Positions 8,831 through 55,974 of a stretch of DNA of 64,000 bases are shown piece by piece; the first letter of the stretch is position 1; each line of letters starts with the position of its first letter. This DNA comes from Halichondria panicea (Eukaryota; Porifera; Demospongiae; Suberitida; Halichondriidae): NCBI RefSeq assembly GCF_963675165.1, contig NC_087389.1, positions 2,452,001-2,516,000 of the forward strand, read 5' to 3'. Made by a program: the position numbers and the translations under genes. The notes under the pieces were generated by a model. It made no database searches. It saw only the letters and a program-made list of their open reading frames with translations, and was not told where the DNA came from.

Positions 8831-8844
8831 ACGAGAAGCGTGGG

Positions 8845-8862
8845 TATAAAAGGGGCGGGGCC
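8845..8862 (+). promoter_or_regulatory. TATA-box promoter, transposase side
   Basis: TATAAAAGGGGC followed by a GC-rich GGGCCCGG block, 14 bp inside the left end and about 205 bp before the transposase ATG. A near-identical block occurs in mirror image at the other end, and copy 2 has TATAAAAGGCC at the equivalent place. Confidence 0.6.
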
Positions 8863-9056
8863 CGGCCAAAAAAATGTCGCACGCAAAATTTATAAGGGAT
8901 AAAATGGCTACTCTTTGCGCTCAGGCTGTATCCCAGATTCACTGCCTTTAGCAACGCTTTTATGAGCGTAAAAGGGGCGTATTGAACGCTTGACATCCGC
9001 TTAGACACGTGGTATTTTAGTCAGTAAACAGTCAGTAAACAGTAAGCTAGTTTGCG

Positions 9057-11527
9057 ATGGCTACTTCAAGGAAACGGGTGCGCTACACAATGGACGTTCA
9101 CTTCGTTGATGAAGAGGAGAAGCAAGCGTTTCTTGGTCGCCTAAAGCATGTCCGTGAGCTGCTAAAGCCTCCTGGAAGCCCTCTGCTTGACAACTTTAGC
9201 CTGTTGAGCACACTCTGTGCTTCTGTTGAAGATGACCCAGATCACTCACACCCTCCCCCTACCCGTTACTGCAATCAGGAGCTTTATGAGCAACAATGGT
9301 AAGCAATACAAGCATCATAAGTAAATGCTCTATGAAGCATCATGCAGGTATGTACAAAAACGATACTTCCGATGGGCAACAACTCTTTGCCACGGAGTAT
9401 CATTGTTTCACTGACCTAGTGAAAGGGCTTGCCACGCCCTGTCCGTGTGGGGTAACTAGAAGTCCCTGGGAAGTCCAGTCAATAGTACAGGTGTGTGTTG
9501 AAAGTTGACTGTCAGTTTTATAAATTACACGTGTGTTTTTTTGTAGAGAGGACATGTGGTACGAGCTCTTTTTTGCTGCCGACGCTGTAAGGTGCAGAAG
9601 AGAAAGTGGTCTAGCTCCCGTGTATTTGGAGGACATTATTTGGTGAACCAGAAGTAAGCTTATGGATACCACACCATAGTTATGTGTTTACTGCATCTCT
9701 GGTATATTTTATATAGGGTTGTTCATGGGTTTACTTGTGCTGGAATTCTACCCTCCCAATACACCCACTTTAGTCAGTTCTGTGGTTTAGGGACTGTTGG
9801 TCAAAGTTACATCCGACAAGGTTAGCTCACTCCAACTATACCCAGAGTGTAAGTAAATTCATATGTTTCCTCAGTGTACGGAAAGCTAGGTTACCGTGAC
9901 ATTGTACAAAGATGTGAAGGCCCTTCTTGAGTATACCACCAACAAAGGAGAGGTGTGTTTATGTACCGTATTACTAGTAATAAATAATTTTATTATTGTT
10001 TTAAACTTAGTGGGTAATCACTGATGCCCGGCACGACTCAATAGCCAACGCATACCACGCATACCACACAACTGTGCCTTGCCTGTCTGGAAGGTGGGAA
10101 GTTAGTGTGTCTCTGTCGGTTTTGTATTTATTTTGTATATTTTCAGCAACAAGAAGATACTCGGCATATCAACTCTCTCTCGGGCCGAACACTCCACTGC
10201 ACAGACCAAAGAACTTGCGTGTACCAAGCTTGTTATCCCTTAAGTGCAAAGCAGAGGTTTATCCCATGAATGCACATAATAATTATTGCCAAATCTAGGT
10301 ATTGAAGTCATCGAGGTAGCTCATGATATGCAGGCGCAGGTCGCAAAGTACGTGTCAGACGAGTTGGAACTCATCAATTCCTACCTAAAATGTGTGGTAT
10401 GTGGTATGTTGTATCATTTTCACACACATTTTAGGAACGAAGAATGTGTCGAAGGAAATAAAGAAAGTAACACAGGGCCTAGTTCGGAAGGTTTGGTTTC
10501 CTGAATTATCAGATATATAAAACGTAAGAATCTACTAATTAAGCTTTCATGTACACTAGTAAGGTGTGCATTAATAGGAAGAAGTATAAAGATCCAGTAC
10601 CTGTATTGGGCAATGAAAAATTGCGGAGGGTCTGCTGAGAAACTGAAGGAGATAATAATGAATATCCCTAATCACTACCAGGTTAGTTATTATTGTTGCG
10701 TGTTTATTAGTAATACATTGATGTTTTTGTAGAGAATCCACACAAATTGCCACCCTTCCTCTACTTGCCACATGGACGACTACGAACCCAGTAGGGACAA
10801 GCTTGTTAGCAGAAAGGCTATAGAAGCTCTCATAAAGCAGCTCCATACGACGTACATTTACCGCTATGCTAAAGATTTCTGTTCGGTAAGGATTAAACAT
10901 GTGTTGTTTGTATAACATACCCGTATATTGTATAGTGTCGTGATACCTACTGGGTTGAGTCGTTTAACCATCAACTCCTCACCTACCTGCCCAAGCGCAT
11001 TCACTTTTCGACTGAGACGTTCATAATGCGAATGAATTTGGCTGTCTTGGATTGGGTACGTACATGGAGTATTATTATGTGTACACTATGTGGGGGGAGA
11101 GCTTCTCGTACACTAATTTGTAGTAGTATTTAGAGCTTACATTTACTTTAAATTTCAGTCTATACTATCGATAATTGCTTTATTCTAGAATGAGAACGTC
11201 AATCGCTCTTACACCAGTATGAGCAAAGTGAGTGACCTTCGACGACCAGATCGCCGCACAGCAATGAAAGCCTTAGTGAAGAAAGGTTTTAAATTTGTTG
11301 CTTTGCTATGGGCAATGTATATGTTGAACAAAACAAAGCTGATATGAGGTATGATTACAATGTGTACGTACATGTAAGGGCATTTGACATGTAACTTTCG
11401 TAGAGAATTGATCGAAGAAGATGACGTAGTAGAGGAGCAGAATGATGACGTGACCTTAGAAGACGGAGTGATGCCACCAGAATATTCTGACGAGTCAGAG
11501 GCTGAGGACAATGACATGGACGACTAA
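9057..11527 (+). CDS. DDE transposase of TTAA (Kolobok-like) element, copy 1
   Basis: Begins MATSRKRVRYTMDVHF, then a helical region with GSPLLDNFSLLSTL. About ten short exons with GT-AG borders follow; clear ones are 9057-9298, a second ending at 9490, a third starting near 9546, and one starting at 10011. In order I see a Cys-rich segment (CCRRCK), FGGHYLVNQK, FTCAGILPSQ, then WVITDARHDS (first Asp, exon from 10011), EVIEVAHDMQAQVAKYV (second Asp, about 10310), a GTKNVSKEIKK and HLYWAMKNC block, and YWVESFNHQLLTYLPKRIHF (likely catalytic Glu, about 10945). The tail is acidic (EDNDMDD). The order D-D-E with a Trp-rich insert matches animal DDE families found as multicopy genes. It would cut and paste the element at TTAA. 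Most exons look open, although one or two junctions are uncertain, so it may be recently active or slightly damaged. Confidence 0.75.
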
Positions 11528-11610
11528 CAATTAATGATGACATGGCCGACTAACAATTAATGAGTTTTATTTACTATGTAATTGGTGTGTACAGGATAAT
11601 TATAAGGCAG

Positions 11611-12627
11611 TCACTCTCTAGAGGTGGACTCGCTTTCCATACCAGCCTCTTCTGGCAAATACTCATCAGTTTCTGCCTCAAATGTTGATCTGTAATAGTA
11701 ATAAGGAATTAGTATTTGCTTTGCTCTTGTTAGCCCCCCTATGCTAAATTCCTAGTCTCTTAGCATAGTAGGCACACTATTCCATTTGATATCAAGGCCT
11801 TACCTGTAGTCACGGTATATGCCATTGTGGCTGGGGTACCTCCTCCTAATCTCCTACACAAGAGAAACAGTACATGTACATACCTGTAAAATTTTATCAC
11901 TTACTAAAACTACACATTTCGGGATTATTTCCCTCTTGTCATGTATCACTGTCCTCGTCTCATCATCTACCCACACTCTCAGTGTATTCAGCAACCTCCA
12001 GAACTTTCTGTACAGTTGATGTCTTTTCTCATCGTTGGCAGGATGGGGGCCACAAGATCCTCTTAGAAAGTCTGGAGGAAGCTGAATCACACACGGTGAA
12101 CACAGGCAGTGATCAATGCCACGGAGAACTGGAGTTGCTGGGTTGTGCTGGTAACCACGAACATGGTGCGGGTATTCTAATAAAAAAATTTGACTTGTGT
12201 GTTTATTTCTACTTTTATGTACATGTACCTTCTTGTGGTTCTGAGTCGTCGCTATGAGTGTCTAGTGCTAGTGTTGCATTCAACGTCAGCTGTACTGTTC
12301 GATTGCCGCTTGGTTGTTCCGGAGAAAGTCTGTCTGTCCACCCAATCACTTGGAACTGCTTCCCCACTCATTAGTATTAGCTAAAGTATGGATTTGTATG
12401 ACTTTTTACATTGTTCTATTGTGTTCTTACTGTTATATCTCTATTTCCATCGCTTTGTACCACAAAAAAAACCATATGGGTCTTGAAAAAACTTAGAAGT
12501 GTTGCTGCCATGTGTTCAGGCCTTCTAAGGCTACTTCTGGGCATGTGCAGTAAAATAAGTGTGGTTGTGTACTGTACGTGTGTGTGCATAGAGTCAGAGA
12601 GCAGCCAGAGTTTGAATTGGCCGCCAT
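11611..12627 (-). CDS. P2X7-ballast-like companion protein, copy 1
   Basis: Minus-strand gene converging on the transposase. Readable exons include WTDRLSPEQPSGNRTVQLTLNA (about 12255-12360), a domain exon (about 11935-12170) with CLCSPCVIQLPPDF, YRKFWRLLNTLRVW and DKREIIPKCVV, then EIRRRYPSHNGIYRDYR (about 11805-11855), and an acidic end STFEAETDEYLPEEAG before the stop at 11611. The Cys cluster, the aromatic YR-FW helix and the IIPKC/IRRRYP/GIYRDYR tail match the cytoplasmic C-terminal 'ballast' domain of the P2X7 receptor, which also occurs alone in many invertebrate proteins. The 5' end is uncertain: ATGs at 12627 and 12511 both fit. No membrane segment is seen, so it is not a receptor. 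Its job in transposition is unknown; the Cys cluster suggests metal or nucleic-acid binding. Confidence 0.7.
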
Positions 12628-12649
12628 TTGCAGCAGCATTCACTTCTCT

Positions 12650-12670
12650 CCGGGCCCTGCCCCTTTTATA
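12650..12670 (-). promoter_or_regulatory. Mirror TATA-box promoter, companion gene
   Basis: In reverse complement this reads TATAAAAGGGGC then AGGGCCCGG, matching the block at 8845-8862 with one difference. It is located 82 bp inside the right end and just upstream of the minus-strand gene, so each end of the element drives one gene inward. Confidence 0.6.
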
Positions 12671-12756
12671 CCGTGGGCGTAGCGCTCTAGCAACGAGTGC
12701 GTAAACGCGCAGTTCATAGATTGCGTATCAATTTTATGCGCAAGCTTCTCCTTTAA

Positions 12757-13100
12757 CCATGTCGTTGATGGTTTTTGATATTCCCGGCCACCAAATAGAG
12801 AGTTTGGCACGGAGACGACATCGTTGAATTCCTTGATGTCCCGTGTGAATCTTTTGTAGGGTCTGCCTTTGCAGTGCTTTTGGGACTACTATTCGTTGGT
12901 TGTAAAGCAAAAGTGTACCATTGGGTATCGTAAGGTCACCACGAGCTTTCCAGTAGGGTTTGATATCGGGAGTGATTTCACTTTGGTTTGTAAAGCAAAT
13001 AGGGTCAGCTGCTTGGGCTTTCCTATATTCGTTGAGTCTTTCTTTGCCAGCTGGAAGATGAGTAATGCATGCTACTATCTAATTCTCTGTCTCCTCTTGT
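12757..13100 (-). pseudogene. gypsy integrase: first part of HHCC finger
   Basis: Minus-strand reading gives HTGHQGIQRCRLRAKLSIWWPG followed by the approach to the first CxxC, the N-terminal zinc-binding segment of a gypsy integrase. The coding continues on the other side of the TTAA transposon at 8826. Confidence 0.75.
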
Positions 13101-14680
13101 AGTCTGGTGTCATTCTCAGTGGTTGCTTCAGGTGCTCTTGATAAAGCATCGGCTGTGTACAAATATTTTCCAGGAACATGCTCAATTGTGTACTGAAATC
13201 GTGCAAGTCGCAATCGAAATCTTAACACTTGGGGTGGAAGTTTGTCGAGATCTTTCGAACCGGTACTAGCGGTTTGTGATCTGTTTTGACATGGAATTTC
13301 ATTCCCAATATGTAGCTTGCAAACTTCTCACATGCCCAGGTGATAGCTAAAGCTTCCTTCTCGATCTGAGCATATCGTTGCTCTGTTTCAGACATTGACC
13401 GGGAGGCATATGCAACTGGCTTCCACATGGAATTGTCTTCTTGTAGTAAGACTGCTCCCAACCCGTATGCTGAGGCATCTGCAGAAACCTTTGTTGCTGC
13501 TAGTGGATTATAGAGTGCCAAGATTGTCGGTCTTGATAGCTCTTCTTTGAGATCTGTGAAGGCTTTCTCTTGGTCATGTCCCCACATCCAGGCTGTTCGT
13601 TTGCTAAGTAGCACTCGAAGTGGTTGGGATAATTCTGCTAGTTTGCTCGAAAACTTTCCCAATTGGTTTGCCATCCCCATGAAGCGTCGTACCTCAGATA
13701 CATTGGTGGGGGGTACCATATTCCGAATAGCTGATGTTTTGTCTGGGTCTCCCATCAGCATCTATCACATGACCGAGGAATTTCAATTTGCTCTTCTCAA
13801 ACTCGCATTTGCTTACGTTGAGTGTGACTCCGGCTTCTTTGATCCGTGTTAGAGCTGCTGCAAGTCTCTCGTCATGCTCGTGTTTGTCTTTTCCGAAGAC
13901 TAGCACATCAGACAGAGAACTCCTTCCAGTCCTGAGAGTATATTACTCATTCGTTTCTGAAAGTGTTCTGATATCCCAAATGGCAATTTGTTAAAGTAGT
14001 ACCGACCAAAAGGAGTCGTCAAGTGTCTTGAGGTCTTGGCTAGCGGAATTTGCCAGAACCCGCTGTTTGCATCCAGTTTGCTGAATACTTTAGCTCCTGT
14101 CATTTGAGCCAGTGTGTCATCCACTTTCGGCAGTGGATGTACTTCCCTGAGTACATGCTCGTTTAGTGGCTTGAGGTCGACACAAATTCAGATTGCTCCT
14201 GCCTTCTTTGGCACCACGACTATCCCTGCACACCATTGTGTCGGTTTGTCCACTTTGGATATGACACCCAGAGATTCCATTCTAGAGAGCTCCTCCTTCA
14301 GAGGTAATGCTATGTGTCTGGGAGCCATGAGTGAGTAAGGCTTAGCACCACCTTTCAGTTTTATCTCATACTCCTCTCCTAGATTGCCGAGACCTTGAAA
14401 AACAGATGGGTATTTCTGTATCACCATAGCTTGGGTGCTAACCTGACTACAAGATTCAAAGCAGATATAGCAGGTAGTCCAAGCAAATTAGTCTTCAGAC
14501 CATCCACTACAAATATGGGCTGTTTCGTCACGACGTCTCCACGACAAATTGATGCCACGAACATTCCCTTTACTTTCAACCTTCAACCTTTACTTTCAAC
14601 TTGACCTTTACTTTCAACTTGATTCTTGAAGGTCCATATAGAGCTTTGCTAGCTGTCGTCAGCTGCGGCTTCTTTAAGTG
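13101..14680 (-). pseudogene. gypsy protease end, reverse transcriptase, RNase H
   Basis: From right to left: the end of the protease and its linker, with KQPIFVVDGLKTNLLG-type sequence (about 14440-14640); RT fingers with VIQKYPSVFQGLG and WCAGIVVVPKK (14188-14427); FSKLDANSGFWQIPL and LPFGISEHFQKRM (13900-14124); the palm and thumb (KFLGHVIDADG, FMGMANQLGKF); RNase H (VSADASAYGLGAVLLQ, YAQIEKEALAITWACE, TDHKPL); and a HVPGKYLYTADALSRAP connection near 13150. The region around the catalytic aspartate pair (about 13905) is damaged by a small frame-shifting deletion, and the 14575-14625 segment has repeated CCTTTACTTTCAAC units. Not functional. Confidence 0.85.
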
Positions 14681-14699
14681 TCGGTAAGTATCCATCGAT

Positions 14700-15532
14700 A
14701 TCTTCCGCTCCTCTTAAACGAGGTTGTTTTCTGATTCACTTGAACCTGTGTCAGCATTTTGGCTGTTCGAAACTGTGTCCAGATAAGCTGCATCCATGTC
14801 ATTACCACTTTCCAACTCGGATACATTCTTGGAAAAACACTGTGCACTGTAGTGGCCTTTCTTCTGACATGTGTGACATGTAGCCTCCTTAGCAGGGCAT
14901 TTCTCACGAGTGTGTTGGCCTCTCCCACAGCGTTGGCAATTAGACTGTTGAGCTTGGCTTTTTGGCCTTCCATTGTTTACGGAATCCTTTTCGTTGTCGA
15001 AGCTGGTCTAAGCTTGATTCGTCCTTTACTGTTCCTTTGAGCTGTTCTCCCACTGCCTCTTGTTGACGTACCGTCTTTTTGGCTTTGTCCAGAGTGAGCG
15101 CTGCATCCAGTTGCAGTCGCTTTGACAGTGCATTGTCACGAATTCCCACTACTAGTCGATCACGGATCATCTCGTCCTTCATGTTGCCATAGTTACAGCT
15201 TTCGTGTACTGTTCCATCGTCTCTCCACTGAGTTGGTTCCTTTGGTTGAATCGTGCCCGTTCAAAAGTCACATTTCTTTCTCACTTGGAAAAAAGCGTTG
15301 AATTTCTCGAGAACAGTCTCATAGACAGCACACTCCTCTGCGGTTACATTCGTAGATGATAACACCGCATCTGCTTCTTCCCTGCTTCTTCCCCCATACA
15401 GTACAGAAGAGTATTAACTTGCTTTCTGGCACTGTCGTCTGTCAGAGAGGACGCTTCTCTGAACTGCTCAAACCGGCGTTTCCATCGAGAAAAGTTAAAG
15501 GGCTCAGAAGGTTGTAGACGTAAGTGGGCCAT
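14700..15532 (-). pseudogene. gypsy gag
   Basis: Starts at 15532 (MAHLRLQPSEPFNFSRWKRRFEQF), only 18 bp inside the 5' LTR and directly after the primer-binding site. It continues with DRLVVGIRDNALSKRLQLDA, typical of gypsy capsid, and ends in a double Cys-knuckle region (RCGRGQHTREKCPAK then CHTCQKKGHYSAQC, about 14830-14940). Frame changes occur near 15345 and 14940. Confidence 0.8.
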
Positions 15533-15535
15533 AGT

Positions 15536-15550
15536 TCACCGCTGCTACCA
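15536..15550 (-). promoter_or_regulatory. Primer-binding site, tRNA-Met-initiator-like
   Basis: Immediately next to the 5' LTR the minus strand reads TGGTAGCAGCGGTGA. The first nine bases match the complement of the usual 3' end of eukaryotic initiator tRNA-Met (…CTGCTACCA). Confidence 0.7.
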
Positions 15551-15758
15551 TGTAGTATCGTGTAGATTTGTTGTCATTTGACTTTTAGACATAAAGACTC
15601 ATCATTGTAACAACACCAGAGTATTTATACAAAACACCAAAACAGTTCCTAGAAGGTTCTCTAATCTAATAACAACTAGCATAGTATACAAACAATCTTC
15701 TTACCAGAACATTCTAGAATACTCTACTAAATACATGATACAATTAGTTCACATTCCA
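15551..15758 (-). repeat. 5' LTR of gypsy element
   Basis: A 208-bp partner of 7543-7740 with TG...CA ends on the minus strand. It differs mainly by small insertions (for example ATCATTGTA near 15600) rather than substitutions. Confidence 0.9.
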
Positions 15759-15763
15759 CACAT

Positions 15764-17037
15764 AAACACCACCACCAAAACACCACCACCATAAAGTCTA
15801 CAGAATCTCCAAAATTCTTAAGCTGCTTTGAATAATGACCCACCGCTATTACAAAGTCCGGCACTGGCATAGGCAAAGTAACGTTCTTAGACACTTTATT
15901 TTATTTATTTCAGCATGCCGCTGGGGACACTACCCTACCAGGATCAATAGGTAACATAGAGTTGGCTGTGCGTATTTCAAGAAGCACACATCTGGCTTCA
16001 AACCAAAGCTCTATACAACTCCAGTGTGGATTATAAGAAATCTGACAGGAACTGACTTATGTCAGACCACAACCAAAATGCTCTGTCATTGTAGTTTCTT
16101 GTTCTGCCATGACTGTCGCAAGGCCCGACTAATGAGGAAAGTCTAGGGTCTGATGCCCTGAGACATGGATCTACCATGCATTATTATTTATAGCTCATTG
16201 ACGTTCATTCTGATAAAATTAATTATGACAGTCTAATTATTAATATGCACAAGTGAAAATTTAGTCTTTGAACTATCCTATAAGTATTCAGCCAGTGAAA
16301 TGGTTGCTCATCTTCATCAGGACTGGTTGTAGAGCTAGATGTGCTTCTTTTGCTCAGATTCACAACACAGTCATGGTATAGTGTTTAGTGATCTTTCTCC
16401 AGTTCAATGGACTTGCCTCTTCCTATATAAACTTGTCTCTCAGGCTGTTTGACAGCTAAATGCTGAGAAGAGTGACGGTTAGAGGGCATAGCTAGGTAGC
16501 TACTTTACAATAATTATAATTAATTTCGCACGTGGCTATTTAGCTTGCTGAATCAGCATCCAATAGCAACTAATTAGCTTGCTGAATCAGCATGCTAGGG
16601 CGCATGCGCAACTAGATCTCGAGTACTGGCAGGTCATTGTGGCAGCCCAGAGCTAAACTGACCGGTTATTCAGGTTCTTGGGTCGGTAAATAGCCGAATG
16701 CCGACCGTTATAATCCACACTGCAACTCTATACAGGGAGCACTAGAACACCACTCTCAATGGCTTAATAAAATACGAGAGGTGGTATGGGAAAGGGCAGA
16801 CAACGAGGAACACGCTCTAAAGCTCCACTGGACAAGATGCCTATGGGTATTACAAATGTGGAAACAGGCTACAGAAAACGACATTGATTTACAGTACTGT
16901 TCCTCATTCTCTTTTCCTATAGGACACGGATGGACAAGAAGTGACACAAACGGGAGCTTACAAGCAAACTACCAGAAAGTACAAACAGACTGGACTATGT
17001 CTCAGATTATCAAACGGTAGATTATCAAACGGTCAAT
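15764..17037. other. No recognised gene
   Basis: A plus-strand frame at 16781-17020 (starting MVWERADNEEHALKLHWTR) is open but matches no family I know and has a rival frame on the other strand. There is one exon-like piece with CAG before and GTAACA after near 15913-15950. A short duplication of TAGCTTGCTGAATCAGCATC lies at 16541-16595. Confidence 0.4.
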
Positions 17038-17370
17038 CAAACGGTCACTTTTCGAAGCGTACCAAAATTCCCAGAGCAGCCGTGCGCATAGCATAGCTCC
17101 AACACAGTCACAGTGCCCACAACTTCCCACAACCCACAACTTCCCACAACTGAAAATTAAAATTATCACTACCGTTAAAGTGGTTGCAGCAAAAATGGTT
17201 GCAGCAAAAACAGTGTGTTCGACAGTGTGTTCGGTGGGCGCCTATAGCATATGGGGGTTAGGTACAGTGTATGTGTAAAAACGCCATCTTTTTTTGTTCC
17301 ACAATAGATGCTTACGTGACAGTACATGCTCATCTACTACCACAAAACAACTAGGTATAGTATTTCTCTG
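17038..17370 (+). repeat. Long inverted repeat, left arm
   Basis: In reverse complement this matches 20370-20662 with indels: shared blocks include GGTACGCTT-GAAAAGTGACCGTTT, ACTTTAACGGTAGTGATAATTTT, CACCGAACACACTGT, the run GGAACAAAAAAAGATGGCGT and TAGTTGTTTTGTGGTAG. The arms are about 3.0 kb apart and face each other, so they could be long TIRs of one element or two insertions of a MITE in opposite directions. Confidence 0.7.
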
Positions 17371-17550
17371 ACTTCCGCTGAGACTCACAAAGAGGTATAC
17401 TGCTGTTTCCACTTAGTTTATCACTTAGTTTATCCCGGAAGTAGTACAAGATAACACGTACCATGGAAGCTCAAGTTACTTGTGGCTTGATATGATGTCA
17501 AAAAGAAAGCCCTAGCTTTTAGCTATCTATTAGTCCAAGTTTCACCAAAA

Positions 17551-17850: not shown

Positions 17851-17964
17851 ATAGGACAGTTTACATGATAAATTTTCCCCCACCTTGTTGTAATCTCTTG
17901 CTGTCTTCTACTAACACCACCCTCATCTACGCCCACTACATCCAAGTCCGGCATTCATTTTCCA

Positions 17965-18560: not shown

Positions 18561-18710
18561 ACCTTCCATGAGTACTTGCAACATAGTCTTTGCAACATAG
18601 TCTTTGAATGAATTCTCAGAACAAATGCAACAAACATAGGCTTTGAATGAATTCTCTACATATTGGGAACAGCTCTCCCACAAAGCTAGTCAATATACTT
18701 TTAGTTTTAA

Positions 18711-42349: not shown

Positions 42350-42830
42350 TCAAGCATCACAGCCATCGATTTCTGAGATACACAGCCATTGACACTGCTT
42401 CAGCCCAATACCGTTTTGAGAGGTTTGCGTCCAGCAGCATCGATCGGGCAGACTCGACCAGGGTCCTGTTGTTCTGTTGTGGTCTCGTGTCTTATCCCCT
42501 CGTCTCTTCTCGAACGCGTTTGATGTATACACCTGTCCTGAGGGCTTCTGCTTGCTTTGCCTTTCATCAAGGGCTTTCCACTCGAGAAAACTTCAAACAC
42601 TTGGTCCTTGCTATTCAATACATACACCCATGTGTACCTAGATTTGTCGTCCGTGAATGTCAGAAAGTATTCTCCTCCTCCAAGGGACTTCTCCTGTATC
42701 TTTCCGCACACATCTGAGTGGACGACTTCAGTAGTTTGAGTTGTACTGCTCGAAAAGGGGCCGGACCTGTTGCATCCATGGACTCATCATCGTTGAATAC
42801 CATTTGTGACACACCATACTTCATTCAGAT
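42350..42830 (-). pseudogene. Ty1/copia integrase fragment
   Basis: Minus-strand pieces: TTEVVHSDVCGKIQEKSLGG, GEYFLTFTDDKSRYTWVYVL, KSKDQVFEVFS (42590-42740), and further on a YTSNAFEK / DEGIRHETT region in shifted frames (42440-42540). These are copia integrase core motifs; TDDKSRY contains a catalytic-core Asp region. No RT, RNase H or LTR is nearby. The first part is duplicated at 43314-43592. Confidence 0.8.
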
Positions 42831-44063
42831 CCATTGATAATAATGGGACCAGCATAACAAGCTAATTAGTACAACCATGACATTTAAACGAGCATGCGCC
42901 GTATAAAAGGCCAGCGCATAAGAAAAAAATGGCGACTGTTTGTGAGTCTTTTCTTTCTGACAAACCCTTCAGAATGAAGTGGTGGCCAGCACTTGTGTGA
43001 TCGTCACCAACTCACCCCCGTCCCAACTCACCCCCGTCACCAACTCACCCCAAACCTTCCACTGGGTTGGCATACCACAGCCAGTTGGTGTTGACCAGTG
43101 TCAACTAGGCAACTAGGCATCAAGGCCAGTGTAGCTGGACAGTACCAGTTTCCTGACAAATACGCGGGCCACGTGGGCATTACGCAACAGCTAGGACAAG
43201 ACTGCTAATCGTAGAAAACGACCGCGCCACAGTTTTGACTGCTCCTGAAGAGCTCTACAAGAGAGAGTGAGGAAGAAGCTATCGCCTGCTGGACGTATCA
43301 CCTTTCTCGCCAGCTTTCCACTCGAGAAAACTTCAAACACTTGGTCCTTGCTCTTCAATACATACACCCATGTGTACCTAGATTTGTCGTCCGTGAATGT
43401 CAGAAAGTATTCTCCTCCTCCAAGGGACTTCTCCTGTGGGACTTCTCCTGTGGGACTTCTCCTGTATCTTTCCGCACACATCTGAGTGGACGACTTCAGT
43501 AGTTTGAGTTGTACTGCTCGAAAAGGGGCCGGACCTGTTGCATCCATGGACTCATCATCGTTGAATACCATTTGTGACACACCATACTTCATTCAGATCC
43601 ATTGATAATATGATAATAATGGGACCAGCATAACAAGCTAATTAGTACAACCATGACATTTAAACGAGCATGCGCCGTATAAAAGGCCAGCGCATAAGAA
43701 AAAAATGGCGACTGTTTGTGAGTCTTTTCTTTCTGACAAACCCTTCAGAATGAAGTGGTGGCCAGCACTTGTGTGATCGTCACCAACTCACCCCCGTCCC
43801 AACTCACCCCAAACCTTCCACTGGGTTGGCATACCCCAGCCAGTTGGTGTTGACCAGTGTCAACTAGGCATCAAGGCCAGTGTAGCTGGACAGTACCAGT
43901 TTCCTGACAAATACGCGGGCCACGTGGGCATTACGCAACAGCTAGGACAAGACTGCTAATCGTAGAAAACGACCGCGGCACAGTTTTGACTGCTCCTGAA
44001 GAGCTCTACAAGAGAGAGTGAGGAAGAAGCTATCGCCTGCTGGACGTATCACCTTTCTCGCCA
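42574..44063. repeat. Direct tandem duplication, 740-750 bp units
   Basis: 42574-43313 and 43314-44063 are near-identical. Each contains part of the copia integrase, the TTAA border and promoter of the TTAA transposon, and its first transposase coding segment. Differences are few: one CT/CA change, an extra ATGATA, and a three-fold GGGACTTCTCCTGT in unit 2 against a triplet CACCAACTCACCCC in unit 1. The join is inside a coding exon (… LSPAGRITFLA). Confidence 0.85.
43314..43592 (-). pseudogene. Duplicated copia integrase fragment
   Basis: Repeats KSLGGGEYFLTFTDDKSRYT and WVYVLKSKDQVFEVFSS from 42590-42740, created by the 740-bp tandem duplication. Confidence 0.8.
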
Positions 44064-45582
44064 TGCTAGACGCGACTAGTGCTGATGAAGGAACGCCAGA
44101 GACAATGGTGAGTGTAATAGTAGATGTACACTAATAGTAGATGTACACTACAGTCCTCATCACTGAGAAGCACTGCTTTGATGATTTGAGACAGGGCTGG
44201 CGTCATCGTGCTCGGAGTGTTTGGTTCGAAGTTGTTGGCGACTGGACTCTGTGATTCAGGTAGTTGTTTTAGCTTGTTTGCGTGATTGTTTTATTAGAAA
44301 GGGTACTCTTGTCGTCACTGCCGGCACCAGCTAGCTCTGTTTGGAGGACACTTCCTTGTCAATCAGAAGTAAGCCGCACCATCACATTAATTGGCTCTTT
44401 CACTTGTGCTGGAATCATTCCATCCCAGTACATACATCGTTCGCTGGACTGGGCACAGTTGGTCATGCTTACATCCAGAGAGGTATATATGGTACAGAGG
44501 TATATATGGTACAAAGACTAACTTTGTCTTACAATAACAACACTCCATGCAGTCGGCTGTAGAGGCTCTGCCACACTACAGCACTAAGGGACAGCACTAA
44601 GGGAGAAGTATGTTGTGTGTTGTTGAATAATTTGTATTTATTTTATTGATTACTCTATTTCAGTGGGTGATAACCGACGCTAGGCATGATTCCACGGCCA
44701 ATGCGTATCATACGACTGTGCCTTGCCTTTCAGGAAGGTATGTTAGTTAGTGTTTAGTACATACATGTACTAAGTGTTGTAATTTTTAGCACTCTCTCCC
44801 GGACAGAGCACTCGGTAGCTCAGACCGAACTTCAGTGTATCAAGGGTATCAAGGGTAAATGTAACTAAAATCATTGTATACTCTCAGGTCTGAATGTTAT
44901 GTTACTGAGGTTGCTCAGGTTGCTAAGTACGTGACACACACACCCTCAATCTCATCAACTCCATGCATCGGTACTAAGAACGTCGTCACAGAGGGTCGGG
45001 TCAGAGGTGGTTCCCTAAACTCTCTGATGAACGTAAATGAAGATGATACGTCACTGATAAATGTCTGTTCATAAGAACTGTCCATGAAGAAGAACTGTGG
45101 TGAGGATCCTAACGTTCTACAGCAGATGGCTCTCAACATCCCTAGAGTCCACCAGCTGCTGTCCAAACGTATCCACTATTCTGACAAGACTTTTCTCATG
45201 AGAATGCAACTGGCCGTACTTGAGTAAGATGAAGATGTAAGATGAAGATGATAATTTATTTTAAAATTAATTTGTGTGTTGTCATTAGAACAAGAATGTG
45301 AATTGTGAATCGCCAGTAAGAGAAAGGTTAAAGACCTTCGCCGTCCTGACAGGCTCTCGTGAGTGACAGGCTCTCGTGAGTAAGGTACGCTAGTATGTCG
45401 CAAGGAACGGCGTCGATTTGAGGTATGTGTATATTATGTACGTGTGGAAAAGTGCAATCGGGTCACTGGCTCTCATATTGACCCCTCAGCTCAGCAGTGA
45501 GCAAGACTGGTTCACTGATGGCATTGTTACCCCCCCCCCTTCTGCCTAGTGATGATATGGAGTCAGATTCAGATAGAGAATA
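43945..45582 (+). pseudogene. Transposase of TTAA element, copy 2
   Basis: Reads in the same order as copy 1: basic start NRRKRPRHSFD and VRKKLSPAGRITFLAMLDAT (43950-44107), HCFDDL and SVWFEV-type segment (44175-44260), FGGHFLVNQK and FTCAGIIPSQY (44340-44450), WVITDARHDSTANAYHTTVP (44664-44730; first Asp), TLSRTEHSVAQTELQCIKG (44792-44855), EVAQVAKYV, GTKNVV, VLQQMALNIPRVHQLLSKRI-HYSDKTFLMRMQLAVLE (45110-45225), and an acidic end DDMESDSDRE at 45582. Several frames and short duplications (AGGTATATATGGTAC, CAGCACTAAGGGA) show it is broken. The second-Asp exon is eroded. Confidence 0.7.
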
Positions 45583-45699
45583 GGTATTATAATTAATTAC
45601 AACATTCTGAACATTCTGCGTCAAATGTCGACAAATAGTCCCCATCCTTCTTATTTCCTGTAATGATTGACAGTAACTAAAGTTATACTCACACATTTA

Positions 45700-46213
45700 G
45701 GTCCCTTTTGTCATGCCGCCTCTCCTTCCTCCTCAGGTACTCCTCATCTCCCAAACTTCCGATACAACCGGTGCCTCTTTGCCTCTTTTCATCATTTGCT
45801 GGATGCATGAGTTCGGAAGTCTAGAGGAAGAGCAATCACACACGGGCAGTGTGGACAGCAGTCCTGCAGTCCCTGTAAGACGGCAGAGCCCCGTGGATGA
45901 CATGGAGAGAGAGCTGCGGACACATAAGTTTTAATAAAATATCATTGATTATCATGTTTATTTTTTTACTAATAGGCTGATCTGGGACGCCTCCCACCTA
46001 AGCTTCACCGTCTGCCTGAGTCCTGCCTCCCGGACTACCTTGTTAATTTTACTAACGACCACTTGTGGTGGAGTGTCTTTATATTTTATGATGAGAAATG
46101 ATGACATTTTATTCTTACCTCGATCTCTTCTTTGGAAATCATAATTATGCACGTGGCCGCATGTTTTTGTTGGTTTATGTTGAGCTGTGTTTTCAAACTA
46201 GGCGCCATTTTGT
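45700..46213 (-). pseudogene. P2X7-ballast-like companion gene, copy 2
   Basis: Start MAPSLKTQLNINQQKHAAT at 46213, then DTPPQVVVSKINKVVREAGL (about 46030-46085), a Cys cluster CCPHCPCVIALPLDF (about 45830-45870), HRLYRKFG and DEEYLRRKERRHDKRDLNV (45700-45770). The order and the CPCVIALPLDF / LYRKF / HDKRD words match copy 1. The terminal IRRRYP-GIYRDYR exon was not found. Frame breaks are present. Confidence 0.6.
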
Positions 46214-46659
46214 GATTTTGCTTCCGGCCTGCTACTTTCCTGCATGAGAACGCGACATTCTTGTTCAAGGGTGCTGGAACACGTAGCTATGAAACTACCT
46301 GCAGGGATCCTTCACAGAATTATGAAGCAACACTCTACTAGTGTGCATTCCAAAAATGGAGAGGAAAACATGATGAGAACAGATTTTACACTACTTGATT
46401 AGCTAAAAGAAGATGAAGTTCCTTCTGGACTTGTTTGCAGGTACACAGGTCTTTTGTTGTAAAATCCCCCGTATATGGACAAAGTCAGCTCGTAACTTTG
46501 TTCACCTATATCTGGCTCTAGCGTACACGTACGTAAGCATGTAAGACCACGCCCCAATTTGCGTACGTAGAGTGCAGACTTTTATCATTGTGGTGGCTCT
46601 TAGAAGAGCCTGGTACTTAGAAGAGCCTGGTAGCAGCAGATGTAAGCCACTGTAGAGGA

Positions 46660-47689: not shown

Positions 47690-47840
47690 AATTATGAACG
47701 TGCATATGCATGGTGACATGTATATTGTAACGTGCATATGCTATGCATGTCACTTGTAACGTGTTGTAACGTGTTGTAACGTGCATATGCATGGTGACAT
47801 GCATGCATATTGTAACGTGCAACGTGCATATGCATGTGTA
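47690..47840. repeat. ACGTGCATATGCATGGTGAC tandem repeat
   Basis: About six imperfect copies with period 15-40 bp, each containing palindromic GCATATGC. Creates a low-complexity minus-strand frame. Confidence 0.8.
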
Positions 47841-48179
47841 CATTGTCAATTGTCATAGTCATTTTGACACAGATAACACCCCATATTTCGAACGTTAAAT
47901 TGGGTTCCTGAGTTATTAATTTGTGCCACATTCTCACTAACTTGCTGAAGGGGCCGGGGTAGATCTTGGGCTTTGGAGTAATCAAAGGTTGAGTTGGATG
48001 TACAGTTGATGCACGCCCAGCAGCAACTTGTCCCAATAACACAGCAAGGGTCCCTTTTCTTTCTTCAACTTCTTTCTTCAACAGCCTTTTCTCTGTGGCC
48101 AGCAAATCACGTGGAGATCATAAATCTGATTGCTGTTTAACAAAGTAACAAAGTCGCAAGCCACTAGAAAAACTCTGTA

Positions 48180-48600
48180 GCAAAGGCATTGATTTTTTGA
48201 GTTTGTGCTATCTGATTTTTGAGGAGCATGTACTACAATAGTTTCATTTGTACTAACCAGTCTCTTTGCTAGAGCGGCCCTTCCTGTCAAAAATGGTGAT
48301 TTTGCTCCATTTTGCTGCCCGTTTTTGCTGACGTAAGCAATGATATTCATTGATTTGTGACATCACAAATCCAAGCTCATGTGATGTCTAACCTGGCAAG
48401 TTGATCAGTCATAATGTGTCACAGGGGCGTGGCAATTTACACTACTACGCAACAGAAACCACCAAGAAATCAGCTAAAATCACGCCGCTCTAGCAAAGAA
48501 GAGACTGGTCTAGCTGAAAAGTATACTATTGTAGTACATGCTCCTCAAAAATCAGACCTTAACTAGCACAAACTCAAAAAATCAATGCCTAAATCAATGC
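48180..48600. repeat. Foldback element, ~110-bp arms
   Basis: 48180-48285 is repeated in reverse complement at 48483-48600: shared words GCCGCTCTAGCAAAG, ACTATTGTAGTACATGCTCC, TCAAAAATCAGA and CACAAACTCAAAAAATCAAT. The spacer is about 200 bp. This explains the open minus-strand frame at 48078-48350. Confidence 0.75.
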
Positions 48601-51600
48601 CTAACACATTTGCTACTAAAAATTTACAAAATTCTGTGTATCTCAGAACCTACAACCTACTAACAAGCCTGCACTTCCGCTGGAGCTCAAAAGATGTGCA
48701 AGGTAATGAAGTACTTGCACAACAAATTTCAGATCTTAACTCAAACATAATTATAAGATAGTTCCATGCCTAACATATTTTCCAATGTACACATATTGGA
48801 ATGATGATGTCATATGATGTAAAAGGTGGTGGTCCACTGGAAGCGCCAATAGTTGAACTTTCAGTACCTGCACTCAAATTGATCCAATCACATTTAGTTA
48901 TTTAGTTTAGAAGATATACACAAAAACGTAAAAAAACAAAAGTTCTACTCTCTTTGGTTGTTGCACTGTACTAGATATATAAAGTGTTTTAATTAACTGT
49001 ATAGGAATTAACTGTATAGGTATGTTCTACTATACTCCTGGGGGGGCGGCTGAATTCATGAGGGGGTTTAGAAGTTCATTAAGTTCATTGTCTATATCAG
49101 CTTGTCTATATCAGCACTATATCAGCACTCTTACGTCCAAGGTAGTATGGTTCTTTGTGGTTAACCAAGACTTAGTCAGCCACCGTGTTACACCTTCCAA
49201 AACTGCATGCATGTAGTCAACAGGTACAGAATCGACTTAAGTTGATCATAGATGTGAGCGGATATATGCCATTGACTGGTTGCTGACCAGCTTCAGCTTC
49301 TGTAGCATTCAGTATATGAGTGCTTTATTCGGCATTCTTTTGCCTGGATGGAGAGCAGCCATAACTCTCTGCGCACTTAAGGCCCGGGTCCAGATTTCAA
49401 CACCAAAATTTACACTATGTTCATACTGCTGTATTATTTGCAATATACAGTGTATGCTGCATCAAAATGATCCAAAATGAAGCTCGATGTTTTCTTTTTC
49501 CAAAAAACTAATTAGCTTAATTCAATTATGCTAATTAGTCCCATAAATGGTAATGACGTCATGCCACTTTCAGAAAGAGAAGTGCAAATACGGCGTTGAA
49601 GATGCCAAGATATCAAGCTTCAAAAACAAGGCTAGATGAACATCTCATAGCTAGGTACTAGTATCCTTGATGGGAAGAGTAGGAGTTATTGTATTCTTGA
49701 GATACACAAAATAGCCTACCTCTAGAGTGGCTGTCAGAGCTAAAGAAGCTAGCATAGCTAAGAAAGTTTTGGACATTTTTACTTCCCATCAAGGAAACAT
49801 AATCATAACAACATACTCTATCTTTTGAGGGCCTAAACAGCTACTCTTACCTTGTTTAAGTCCGCCGTATTTGTTGCCAAAGATAATCTATAATAGTTCT
49901 AGCAGCTAGCTAAGCAAATACATTGACCTTATGACGTCACATGCAATGAATAACATTCTCATTAACTCCATTCTCATTAACTCTACATGATCTACATAAA
50001 ATGTTGGCAATGAATAAAATTAATCTTATCAGTGCCTGACCCAGGCCTTAACTGCGCAGAGCTGGCTGTTTGGCACACAAAGCTGCAGGTAAATCAAATA
50101 ATTATTGCCAACACAACTGATGCTTTAAAACGTGTAGGTACTTGAAAAGTATTTACAAAAACGCGAATTTGACTTGCTAGGGGTTGTAAGAGGCGTTATT
50201 CATTCTAAAAAGGTTTTACATAATGATTTGAAACATGACAACATTAGCTCCACTAAACAATGTATACTTACTTACTTACCAGGGTTCGGAAAACTCATGA
50301 AAGAGTAGACACAAACAAGAAACAACTCATTTCTTTCTCATCGATGAGTAATAATTATAGTGTTACTATTCTTTGAGTCTAAACTTTCCATGGAGTGAAC
50401 ATCATGACATCTCTTGTCATGCTTCATGCATTGCTTCATGCATTAGTGTTCACACATGGAAAATACAATAAAGAATTGTCATAGAACAAGTGGAACAAGT
50501 GGGTGTATATTCGCTAGTCCCCTAATAAGCCACTTCTTGCAGAAAAGGGTGGGCGTATTTTCACGGTACGGTATATAAAAATTATTTAAATTGGTATCCT
50601 CAAGTCATACAAAGTCGCACTTTCCACACTGACGCACTTTCCACTTATACACACTGAATAAAATCAGGCCTGTGCTAATGGCTTTCGGATGAATGGGAGA
50701 CAGAATGGGAGACATACAATGAGTACCCCGTATCGTATCCTGAAAGAACAGTTGCGTTTCAGGCAACTGTACGGCAACTGTACGTCACATGACTAATTAT
50801 ATATCTGCCCAACAAATCATCATTGTTGCACATGTGCACCCAAAGTTTATGGTCTCAACTGAAGCTACTGTATGAAGAGAGACCCCTGGCCTTAAGTAGC
50901 CTTAAGTATGAGTTATCCAGCTTGATCTGGCAGCTCAATTAATGGTGCTGTTACATGCTGTTACAGATCTGTGTGTGTGTGCCCACATTTGTTTATGTCC
51001 CACATTTGTTTATGTCTTATATTTATGTTCTCAGTGAGATGAAGTTGCTGAGACCATAACGTAGTTGTTCGACACATTGAATGTCAGCGAAACTTGGGAG
51101 AAAAGCGTGGAAAGGCTTTACAAAAACCCCCAAAAAATTGATGATGCCCACACTATACTTTTATAGCAGTGAGGTCATTTGTGGAAATGGTTAAGTATCT
51201 ATTCACGATACCTGTTGTTGTGCCAAACAGTGTGCCAGGACCTTTTTTTGGTCAGCAAAGGTAAATCGAAAGGTAAATCGAACGAAAACCCAGTTTGCAA
51301 AGAACACACAGGTCCCTTTGCCTTTGCCTTTGCACTGTGGAAAATGTGTGTATAATGTATAATTGTGTATAATGTATAATACATAATACATACATGTTCA
51401 GTGTAGCTATGTACAATAAGAGTAGTAAATCTATGACAGTAAATCTATAAACGCAAGCACTCACCCAGAATTTTCTCTTATGGTTCAGACTACAGTGTAG
51501 CAACATCTATAATTATAACTTACTTAATTATAATAGTAGTGGTTTTATAATAGTAGTGGTTGTCTGTCTGTCCTCCATGCCTGGGCCTTGTACTGGCAGC

Positions 51601-51944
51601 ATTAATTTTATTCAGTTAATGAGATTTATAATCTTTATCAGTGCATGTGACGTCATGAGTCAATGTGTCAAGCTAGCTGCTGGAACTATTATACAATATA
51701 CAATCCAAGTGGACTTAGCCACCCTCTACTTAGCCACCCTCTACTTTATGCAAAAGCAGCAATGAGGTTTTGAAGCTTGATCACCAGCATAATTCATTTA
51801 AATTCATTATCTTGATGTAGCATAAATAAATACAGCAGTTGTTTTGACCCGTCTGTCTGTGTATTCTCAGCCTGGATGCGATAGCACTGTGTCTTTAAAT
51901 TTGGCAGATTTTGGTGTTACATCGAATAAAAGCGAATAACTTAC
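48601..51944. other. Gene-poor stretch
   Basis: No coding exon is recognised. 49430-49640 resembles 1990-2170. CCTTGATGGGAAG and CTTCCCATCAAGG (49667 and 49779) form a 13-bp inverted pair. 50750-50795 is inverse to 37165-37195. Several 10-20 bp duplications occur (GGAATTAACTGTATAG at 49000; CCCACATTTGTTTATGTC at 50990). Confidence 0.5.
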
Positions 51945-52440
51945 ATGTTGTTGGACACAAAGTTGAGTGACCGCTTAAGCACTTTATTGAATCACCAAGA
52001 ACGATACGTTACGTTGCCTCAGTACATTTGTAGGAAAGCCTTTCTTGTAGTGGAAAGAAAGTTGAAGTCCCAAGCCAAAGAGAGTTTTGACAAGTTTCAA
52101 GTTTCAACAAACAGTCCCTATGCACACATTTCACTATGCACATTTCACTATGCACTATGCACACATTTCAATGCACCTACATGTACCCGAAAGCGACCTA
52201 AAGACACTAGTAGCTTAACGGGAGTGTCACGTCCGCCATCTAAAAGGGCATCAAGAAGATTGTTTGAGCTTTGTAAGTAGCATTACATGTATACAAACAC
52301 ACATTAATTTATGACAACCTGTTCTTGCTGTAATTTTCTTTTCTTTAGCTCCAGAGAGACCGTAATTAGATACATGTTGCAATTTTCTTTTGTAGCTCCA
52401 GAGAGACCTCCTCCTTGTCCAAGTGAGAATCTCTCACCCA
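51945..52440 (+). pseudogene. DUF6589-like gene B, N-terminal exons
   Basis: MLLDTKLSDRLSTLLNHQER with LPQYICRKAFLVVERKLKSQ, then a basic/Ser region KRPKDTSSLTGVSRPPSKRA-SRRLFELCK (52185-52275), and after an intron APERPPPCPSENLSPTHG. Assigned to the DUF6589-like gene by position: coding recognisable as that family resumes right after the TTAA transposon that ends at 55908. The N-terminal part alone is not diagnostic. Confidence 0.45.
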
Positions 52441-52827
52441 CACATGGTATGCACAATGTCATGTACAAAGAACTTAATTATTATAATTATTATAATTATT
52501 ATTATAATTATTATGACGCAATTAGATAAAAAAACATGGGTTTAATCTTGCCTCGTATACATGCATTATGGCAAATCGATCTGTTCGACATCTGTTAAAC
52601 GAGCGTGTTGGCTTTAATTACCGCATTAGTCGCTTCCGGAATTCTGAGTATATGCGACCTTTGACCCCGAAATCTTTGACCCCGAATCTTTGACCCCGAA
52701 ATTTCCATTCAAGCCTTAGTAACGAGCTCTTTTTTCTTTTTTTCTCTTGCACAAAAACGGCACACTCAAAAATAATGCGCAAACACAAGGGAGAGGGGAA
52801 TACATTCCAGGAGTAACCAAGAAACTT

Positions 52828-53610
52828 ATGGCTGACAAAAAAATAAGGCTCAAGGTAAGTAGCTAGGTACAGCAAAAAGGCCATGTACAATAAATAAAAT
52901 GTGTGTTCAGCTTCAGGTCAGCTACAGTGAGCAACTTCCAGTGAAGTTTCTGGAGGAGTTTAGGAAGCTTGCTTCTTTTCATGGGTGTGTAGTAGACAGT
53001 ATTGCAACTACGTCGTTGGATAGTCTTGAAGAAGGTGAATCTGAAGAAGGTGAATCTGAAAATAATTTTGTCATTATTATATCAAACAAAATCTGTACTA
53101 CCATCAGGGTTGTCAAGTGGGTGCACGGCATCTCTCCCAGGTAACGCTAGATGAGAAAATGGGTATAATTATCACCTGATTACAAAAGTAAACGTAACTT
53201 ATCTTGGGTAGTGAATGTATAATAATGTACGACTTATCTTTATTATAGGTGGTAGTAGCCAGCACTGGGGGGAGACAACGCTTGTCCTATTTGCCACCTC
53301 TCACCCTGTGCTGTAGCCACTGGTTGATAGGAGCATCTGCACCAGATTTGGGGAACATGACAAAGAGGTACAGGCTGTACAAGAAGTTCTGGACCCTATT
53401 GGGAAAGTCTGGGGTGTGGAAACATCCAGAGTATAAAAGAATAGAACATGACAAGAGGCCTGCCTGATTGTGTGCTAAAAGTAAGTTTTAAATCATATGA
53501 AACTTACAGTGCAGGTACAATCCATTTTTGTTATCCAGGAGGTGCGTGGACGATTCCCTAACCCACCGGGTTTTCTGTACAAAGACTTTCAGTCAACATC
53601 TCGCTTTTGA
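52828..53610 (+). CDS. P2X7-ballast-like companion protein, copy 3
   Basis: First exon MADKKIRLK with a GTAAGT donor (52828-52854), second exon LQVSYSEQLPVKFLEEFRKL through HGISPR (52911-53141; includes a duplicated GEGESEEGESE), third exon with CSHWLIGASAPDLGNMTKRY, RLYKKFWTLLGKSGVW and KRIEHDKR (53310-53460), last exon EVRGRFPNPPGFLYKDF then stop near 53610. The YKKFW helix, HDKR and the RGRFPNPPGFLYKDF ending align with copy 1. The N-terminal half (S…LPVKFLEEFRKLA) is a separate region with no known domain. The best-preserved companion gene of the three; most exons are open. Confidence 0.7.
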
Positions 53611-54359
53611 GATCAATATATGTGAGATCAATATATGGCATGTTGCAAGGGCCAATAAACTGCTCATAGCCATGTAATAACTATTACATACAAGTTCATC
53701 GTCCATCGTTCGCCAGATCATCAATGGCTCTTCTGACGGTTGCTCAGCATCCCATATATTGTCCACAAATTTAAATCAAATTAGCACTTTCATGGCAGTC
53801 CTACGTTCAGGCCTCCTCACTTGTACTTTTTGTACTTTCTCTACATACTTTCTCTACATACATTCTCGTTCTGTAATGTAAATACTTCCATTGTAATACA
53901 GTAGGTTAGTACAACATATACCCAGTGCATAATAGTACTTGATCCAAAATGAATACGCTTTGGTATGTATGTGAGTAGCTGGTGATTGCAACACATGAAA
54001 TAAATCATCTATAATACTAATTGAAAATCCTCACTCAACAGTATGACTAGTGTCGCCTTATAAGCTTCGATGGCAGCAGGATCCTCAAGTTTGATCTGAA
54101 TGGTGGCAGAATGAGGTTTTGTCGAGGTTTTGTCACAGCCTTGTTCTGCAAACACAATAATTGTGTTTATAATAATGCAAACACAATAATAATAATAGGT
54201 TATAATACATGTAAACATAAGATACTCAGATACTCAGATATTTAAAATACTTTTCCGCAGCTTTTCTGCTGACTGAGCACAGTTCTTCATACAGTAGTAC
54301 AAGTGGATTTTTGTACTTTTACCTAATGGGGATTATATTTATGTGACTCAGCAATTTCA
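53611..54359. other. Intergenic space inside TTAA element copy 3
   Basis: Between the convergent genes. A minus-strand frame at 54009-54218 (… IQIKLEDPAAIEAYKATLVI) is open but not recognised; it might be the diverged tail of the transposase. Confidence 0.3.
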
Positions 54360-55722
54360 ACAAACAAAGCTTAGTTTGTCAGATAACTCTGGAAACCAGG
54401 TCTTTCCTTGAGCCTTCTTGGTCCCAACTGCTATTTTCGCCATTTTCTTTGCTACATTCTTGGTCCCTGCACCAACTCTGTTACAGAATATACGCTTACC
54501 GTGCCAGGTGTTGTACGAATTTCCAAGGTTCAGCTCATCAGTGACGTATTTCTTCACTACAGGTTGATTGTCATGAGCTACTTCAACTATTAAGGCATGG
54601 GCATGTTGCTACCTTTTTCCAGAACCTGCGGAAGAACTATCTTGGTACATGCAACTTCTCGAGTCTGTGCACAATGATGTTCGGTTCTGGACACATTTGA
54701 GCAGCCAACAATTCTTTTCGTACTATTGTGGGTTAGAGATAACAAGAACGAACGAGACATACCTTCCTGACAGACAAGGAACGGTGGTATTATACGCGTT
54801 GGCTGTAGAGTCGTGGCGAGCGTTATTACCCACTGTTGATAAAGTACACTTGTTTCAAATACGATAAAAAGACTCATAAAATATTTACCTCGCCATTGGT
54901 TGAGTAATTAGGTGTTGCTTTCACTTCCTCAACTGCCTTCAGCATGGATGACATGCGTCCACAGTACCTGTAACCATACAACCATTAGAGAAACTCCAAA
55001 TAAACAAACCTGAAGAAATGTACCATGCACCGACTTTTCACTCGGTAGAACTGTAGAACTCTAGCACACGTGAAAGCATGAACGATCTTGGACCAAAAAG
55101 TCAAGTAAATAAAAATAATGACAATGTATCGTATCGTCCACCTAGCTCGTATCGTCCACCTAGTGTTCGTGAGCTAGCCCACCACTGGCGCCTTCCGCAT
55201 TGAAATTCAATGCGGAGGACGTGCCCCTTCTACAAAAAAAAAGTTTACAGACACTCATATAAATTAGGCGCTACCTAAAGAGAGTATGACTGGCACTGAT
55301 ATGGTTGGCACACAGACGGGAAAATGTTTTTTGCTCACAAATGAACAACTGGTCGTCACTGGCGTTGGCATTGCCAGTGAAAATTCCTGAACGATACATA
55401 CAATTATTACATACAATTATTACGTCACATAAATATCAGAAATGACAAACCTGAATTCTCCAACATGGGCACGACATGAGCGATCAGAGCCAGGGCAAAC
55501 TCCTTCAGCTGCCAGTTCCTCCATATTGTCCAACAATCTAGAGAGAAGCTCTCCGTTGTCCAAGGGCAATGAGCCTCTGGCAGCAAGAACACGCTTAGCG
55601 CTGTCCATCCTATCCTTAAGTCTTCTTGGCCTCATCCGTGTTGAACATCAGCTCCATGTGGTGCCTAAAACCGTGCCTATAGCACGCTTCTTAGAAGAAG
55701 CTGAAAATAAGTTTGTAGCCAT
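54360..55722 (-). pseudogene. Transposase of TTAA element, copy 3
   Basis: Start MATNLFSASSKKRAIG at 55722; shifted frame MELMFNTDEAKK, then DRMDSAKRVLAARGSLPLDN-GELLSRLLDNMEEL (55470-55600) matching the GSPLLDN N-terminal helix of copy 1. Then MSSMLKAVEEVKATPNYSTN (about 54900-54965), SRTEHHCAQTREVACTKIVL (54640-54700), KYVTDELNLGNSYNTWHG and GTKNVAKKMAKIAVGTKKAQ-GKTWFPELSDKL (54360-54557). The central WVITDARHDS exon and the C-terminal Glu region were not found, so it is truncated as well as frameshifted. Confidence 0.65.
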
Positions 55723-55974
55723 TTTTTTGTTCTGGTTTGAACAAACTACCTCGTGCGAGAGCTCACGCTATACTCAGGAAGAAGGCGTATCAAAGGAAGT
55801 GTAAAGAATGGCGTCAAAAAGACTCAAACAAATTCATCGTTTGTTCATTTTCCCCATTTTCCCGTTGCATCCGGTCGGAGCTGCACACGGCATGCCCTTT
55901 TAGCTCGTTTAAGGTAAGAACACTTTCGAACACTTTCGAACCCTAACCCTTGTAGCTAAATATAATATTGCAGG

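Follow-up and report, generated by a model that had tools for sequence, protein, structure and literature searches.

What kind of mobile element carries, beside its transposase gene, a second gene resembling the ballast domain of the P2X7 receptor, and what could that second gene do for the element? The question is raised by a 64-kb stretch of the sponge Halichondria panicea (C13:2452001–2516000, hereafter the window; the genome searched comprises 131 Mb), in which a sequence-only reading had recognized three copies of a two-gene unit sharing the start TTAA-ACGAG. The three copies are real and have the bounds given in Table 1. We consider it probable that they belong to a transposon of the Kolobok superfamily inserting into TTAA, that the second gene, here called the companion, encodes a divergent homologue of the accessory protein KolX, that the two genes start from inward-reading TATA boxes, and that the companion acts with the transposase at the element ends. 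The link between ballast and Kolobok is known (2022, PMC9587614), and the sponge elements are a divergent branch with a slimmed companion.

Copy 1 has four more near-full copies in the genome, and all five are 96.8–98.1% identical (70-bp flanks included), with flanks that differ from one another. TTAA stands on both sides of four of the five, and the right end of the fifth is gone. Two paralogous empty sites of copy 1 are unbroken across the insertion point and hold one TTAA each (246/262 and 216/221 positions identical), in keeping with the 4-bp TTAA target site duplication of Kolobok. For three further subfamilies 12 locus pairs were compared: in eight, similarity starts within a few bases of the TTAA-ACGAG border, and in the other four it does not. 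The termini read AC..GT if the duplication is TTAA and AA..TT if it is the TA within it, the sequences being the same either way. The terminal sequence TTAAACGAG occurs six times in the window where 0.31 occurrences are expected from shuffles: at the starts of copies 1, 2 and 3, at the far end of copy 3, at 43660 where the left end of copy 2 is duplicated, and at 14714. At this last site the 200 bases read give no sign of an element: a TATA box is absent from the first 120 bp, and a second end is not found close by (the genome was not searched for it).

The transposase is open in a sister copy (L004), where it has 580 amino acids (aa) in 14 exons, and the RefSeq Halichondria panicea model of 567 aa matches this reading at 99% over 97%. 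An alignment of 38 out of 65 homologues, which come from sponges, corals, molluscs and unnamed metagenome proteins, displays the pattern TDARH - HD - DTWHGTKN - H-H-C-C finger - VESFN, from which D242, D308 and E455 are predicted by motif to be the catalytic residues. The second D, the DTWH and the finger (H381, H386, C389 and C395 of P0001) are kept at 90% or more of the 38 rows; the first D and the last E fall below 90% though clear by eye, because many rows are partial. The protein thus has the zinc finger of Kolobok and its DDD/E triad with C/DxxH, the DTWH lying between the second D and the E. In Pfam it matches PF20700 at 31 bits (cut-off 26.5), and a profile of window-type transposases finds the THAP-bearing transposase of the same genome at 63.2 bits, the best shuffle reaching 11.5 bits among 909 scored of 1000. 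A THAP domain, which on a transposase marks the Kol0 lineage, is itself found in none of the window-type transposases scanned. Family scans of the window-type proteins gave no match at E up to 1 to PF13843, which we take to be the piggyBac transposase domain. On sequence comparison the transposase groups with Kolobok, where the reference is the KolX-bearing element of the same genome and not a Repbase entry.

The arrangement of the two genes is a property of the element, as the sequence-only reading had argued from copy 3, which is indeed inverted and still tail to tail, with the companion on the plus strand and the transposase on the minus strand. The 83 companion matches obtained with tblastn fall into 47 clusters, a lower bound, and a transposase stands tail to tail with the companion within 5.5 kb in 40 of them, a count made without chance control. 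For six clusters the transposase positions were taken from the genome list of transposase matches, which is likewise a lower bound (75 of 295 candidates scored). A companion-side TTAA end is present in 25/47 clusters, with sequence covering that side for all but 7; one of the 25 (C1:9091184), being just 176 bp away from the core exon, could be part of a different insertion. As an orientation control we took 36 companion loci, where transposase matches occur only on the opposite strand and downstream in 31 and are lacking in four; the exception is the rearranged L049, with a transposase on the same strand upstream.

In L004 the companion has 192 aa in four exons on the strand opposite the transposase, and the RefSeq model has the same length and agrees at 99%. 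Window-type companions score 19.6–19.8 bits against Pfam P2RX7_C, below the gathering cut-off of 23.5, in a match restricted to the last 30 positions of the profile. Six further companions were spliced, and P2RX7_C is the best family for five of them (16.8–23.5 bits), the best relative standing at exactly 23.5. Profile against profile, companion and canonical KolX align with a score of 34.9 (P 3.9e-5, program probability 71%), the maximum of 100 column-shuffled profiles being 24.5. The companion profile has 33 rows, seven spliced by us and 26 of 54 metagenome proteins tried, 28 having been dropped as not fitting the splice-donor pattern used for cutting rows; the canonical profile has 12, namely L001 and 11 of 34 hits chosen for freedom from intron read-through. 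Because we cleaned and selected these rows, the score is moderate evidence only. In an alignment of 50 rows the cysteines C74 (invariant), C77, C79, C82 and C147 reach a conservation of at least 90%, with C79 missing in the L056/L058/L069 group. The window lineage thus has four to five conserved cysteines versus seven in canonical KolX; the CVCC and CIT cysteines of the canonical form are gone, the second cysteine cluster is missing, and on our reading the companion would have a single zinc site, against two in the ballast. A first AlphaFold model reached a pLDDT of 74.2 and a pTM of 0.52, and a second, built with rows covering the tail, was worse (66.5 and 0.41). It is likely that the companion is homologous to KolX and the P2X7 ballast, with a fold that is unproven.

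The full ballast form also exists in this sponge. P2RX7_C matches only twice in the genome, both times on C7, in 98%-identical copies of a two-gene Kolobok-type element (L001 and L063) that has TTAA at both ends in one copy and at the one end examined in the other. It carries terminal repeats of 30 bp (AGGGAGGG...), identical to each other and located at two TTAA sites, a transposase with a THAP domain (75.3 bits), and a KolX that scores 45.2 bits over about 150 residues of P2RX7_C; a profile of canonical KolX homologues finds solved P2X7 chains with a best E of 7.3e-12. We take it as Kolobok because of its TTAA ends, RR..YY termini and KolX. It shares with the window lineage the TTAA borders, the tail-to-tail genes and a homologous transposase, and differs in its AGGGAGGG repeats, THAP domain and full ballast KolX. 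The sequence-only reading had proposed that ballast homologues are transposon accessory proteins, to be checked with P2RX7_C and with a genome-wide search for both genes. The proposal holds for both P2RX7_C matches of the genome, the window companion being only a divergent relative below the cut-off, and the two-gene search bore it out in the counts given above. A single P2X receptor gene was found in this sponge (C8:4267843–4272908; L081, L082), and the genome scan shows no P2RX7_C match near it.

Each gene may start from a TATA box of its own terminus. Among 43 distinct TTAAACGAG ends of the genome sequence examined, 39 have an inward-reading TATAAA or TATAAG within 120 bp, and such a box occurs in 10.6% of random 120-mers. 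Its position is mostly 15 on the transposase side and 17, 50, 63 or 83 on the companion side. If a gene starts at a TATA box within the terminus, proteins bound to that terminus could also repress the gene. Copy 1 has a 23-bp inverted repeat that contains the TATA box (8843–8865 and 12650–12672); it lies 12 and 80 bp from the two ends, and because these distances are unequal it is not the terminal repeat itself.

The companion appears to be kept by selection. Seven subfamily members were compared pairwise over its core exon (88–96 codons), and pN is smaller than pS in all 21 pairs; dN/dS is 0.18–0.39 in the three pairs with dS below 1.3 and 0.09–0.25 in four with dS of 2.2–2.7. Five elements of about 2.4 kb (L064, L065, L068, L071 and L072) lack transposase residues ~77–411 and retain the companion core exon, with TTAA ends on both sides in three and on one side in two. 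Two further companions, L040 (C4:4202023) and L046 (C4:5539022), have no transposase match at E 1e-4; L040 is open, and all that resembles a transposase beside it is a stretch of 17 residues matching the acidic transposase tail (E 0.007); the dN/dS between the two is 0.39. They are possibly solo or domesticated KolX.

Taken together, the window copies would belong to a DNA transposon of Halichondria panicea that moves by cut and paste and is a member of the Kolobok superfamily. Its transposase would cut at the ACGAG termini, with a chemistry presumed from the family, and insert into TTAA, the target site observed. For each gene, reading would start at a TATA box close to the corresponding end and run inward until the two genes meet tail to tail, the positions and layout being those described and the promoter activity predicted from them. 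The companion is likely a divergent homologue of KolX, the protein that in its full form constitutes the P2X7 ballast domain. It would most likely work at the ends together with the transposase, either as a basic co-factor stabilised by zinc or as a brake on transposition; we infer this role because the gene is under purifying selection and is retained in elements without the transposase core.

Several observations weigh against this explanation, and those that concern the companion would also suit a convergent origin, in which it is an unrelated small zinc protein with a short basic tail (IPxC...IRxRYP) that happens to resemble the ballast. Its match is to the C-terminal part only and stays below the Pfam cut-off, and one of the six further spliced companions has no family match at all. 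A first profile comparison was negative before row cleaning, with metagenome open reading frames running into introns (program probability 0.4%, E 0.14). PDB sequence searches with the window-type companion gave no match, and Foldseek against the PDB returned 0 matches for the model of mean pLDDT 74; the structural check suggested in the sequence-only reading was therefore not passed, a result that is not decisive since no control model was run alongside. Convergence is opposed by P2RX7_C being the best family for five of six other spliced companions, by a companion-KolX profile score above all 100 controls, and by a position and orientation like those of canonical KolX, beside a homologous transposase, and we regard it as unlikely. 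Similar reservations apply to the promoters and to selection: the 39 TATA-bearing ends are copies of about nine kinds, the four ends lacking the box include both ends of copy 3 (the others are 14714 and one in L024, which may not be element ends), and dN/dS was not computable or was useless by saturation in 14/21 pairs (dS 26.7 in one, beyond calculation in 13).

Other difficulties touch the identity of the element. An element of another TTAA superfamily, piggyBac or Sola3 (a Sola transposase with TTAA as its target), might have acquired a KolX-like gene. The termini, AC..GT under TTAA duplication, would agree with this, since PMC9587614 lists RR..YY among the hallmarks of Kolobok, beside two Ds, DxxH, the finger and E. 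The same source mentions piggyBac families with cysteine-poor KolX-like proteins, to which the cysteine-poor companion may be compared. The piggyBac part of this idea conflicts with the lack of any piggyBac transposase family at E up to 1, and the whole of it with the profile match to the THAP-bearing Kolobok-type transposase, which makes it quite improbable. A tail-to-tail transposase is lacking in 7 of the 47 companion loci: two have an inverted companion exon inside the element (C12:2463111 and C12:2575191), one is a marginal 25-residue match (C17:3063555), and in four no transposase was found (C1:9874933, C4:4202023, C4:5539022 and C6:7126413). These seven, and the open L040 companion with almost no transposase, would fit loci that are host genes, some domesticated, with transposons inserted alongside by chance; one fixed layout in 40/47 loci, inter-copy similarity that spans both genes and ends at the TTAA border, and the absence of copy 1 with both its genes from two empty sites contradict this for the bulk, and we give it hardly any credence beyond single loci such as L040, where it could hold.

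Within the window the copies have decayed to different degrees. Relative to its sister copies, copy 1 has differences that break the reading frame; copies 2 and 3, which are of other subfamilies, are more decayed, with stops and broken words in both genes. The ordered transposase words reported as common to the three copies recur in part: GTKNV and ARHDS are in all three and the others are shared only loosely, GSPLLDN being exact in copy 1, GSLPLDN in copy 3 and not seen in copy 2, and FGGHYLVNQK being exact in copy 1, FGGHFLVNQK in copy 2 and not seen in copy 3. The companion words, too, are intact only in copy 1, those of the other two copies being altered. In copy 2 a tandem duplication comprises the left end and its flank (42572–44063; 776 columns, 92%).

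Table 1. Features of the three elements, in positions of the window
Feature	Position	Strand	Remark
Target site TTAA, left of copy 1	8827..8830	.	Single TTAA in two empty sites
Copy 1, whole element (ACGAG...CTCCT)	8831..12752	+	
TATA box, transposase-side end of copy 1	8845..8850	+	Position 15 inside the end
Transposase gene of copy 1	9057..11520	+	14 exons, positions carried over from sister copy L004; reading frame broken here
Companion (KolX-like) gene of copy 1	11611..12371	-	4 exons, positions carried over from L004; altered here
TATA box, companion-side end of copy 1	12665..12670	-	At position 83, counted from the terminus
Target site TTAA, right of copy 1	12753..12756	.	Single TTAA in two empty sites
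Target site TTAA, left of copy 2	42884..42887	.	
Copy 2, decayed	42888..46264	+	Left end repeated in tandem at 43660
Recognisable transposase stretches of copy 2	44330..45500	+	Approximate span
Companion core exon of copy 2, decayed	45747..45899	-	C13:2497747-2497899
Right target site of copy 2	46265..46268	.	TTAA decayed to TCAA on our reading
Target site TTAA, left of copy 3	52595..52598	.	
Copy 3	52599..55908	-	Inverted relative to copies 1 and 2; companion on +, transposase on -
Companion core exon of copy 3, decayed	53318..53458	+	
Transposase of copy 3	53749..55678	-	Span of tblastn matches
Target site TTAA, right of copy 3	55909..55912	.	

That ballast genes belong to transposons, as the sequence-only reading inferred, was already known, because it had been published by Kojima and Bao (2022; PMC9587614). 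They report a ballast fold for the KolX of the Kol0 lineage, propose that P2X7 is a P2X4-like gene fused with KolX and that Nanor is a domestication, and mention KolX-like proteins poor in cysteine from a few piggyBac families. Kol0 with KolX has in common with the window lineage the TTAA target, a DDE transposase that has DxxH and, ahead of the E, a zinc finger, and a KolX-type second gene; the window lineage differs by lacking the THAP domain (present in the canonical element of the genome), by its ACGAG termini, and by four to five and not seven companion cysteines. KolobokP, from the same text, also has an accessory gene downstream on the complementary strand, and differs in that this gene encodes a His-Me finger nuclease and that the element has long terminal direct repeats (PMC9587614). 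With the P2X7 ballast the companion shares the (I/L)(I/L)P.C...IR..(Y/F)P tail, the aromatic-basic stretch before it and a C.C..C-like cluster, and differs by having no second cysteine cluster, no receptor part and a score below the Pfam cut-off. Rump et al. (PMC7016195) trace the ballast domain from sponges to vertebrates, and 'transpos' is absent from the main text; PMC6004289 gives H2CH and AVPTIF motifs for Xenopus Kolobok. A THAP-less branch with a reduced companion and TATA-bearing ends was not found in the literature searched, in searches not aimed at the branch by name, and Repbase may list it.

Four proteins of Entelurus aequoreus annotated as 'P2X purinoceptor 7-like' (P0129–P0132) are 91–98% identical to P0129 and lie on four contigs; they look like multi-copy transposon KolX and not receptors. 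Genes that bear this annotation may hence be KolX. The sponge elements are an independent confirmation, from an early-branching animal, that ballast-domain genes travel as transposon cargo. A speculative thought, which we would hold doubtful as it stands, is that the sponge branch displays a minimal ballast, a KolX that keeps one zinc site (C..C....C with IPxC) and the IRxRYP tail and has lost everything else. In that case the tail and the preceding helix would be the seat of the original function of the ballast, exerted at transposon ends whose TATA boxes let both proteins tune their own transcription, and P2X7 would owe its guanine-nucleotide-binding tail to a transposition cofactor that was remade. 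If the kinship of companion and KolX is true, the reduced companion would narrow down the part of the ballast that is indispensable.

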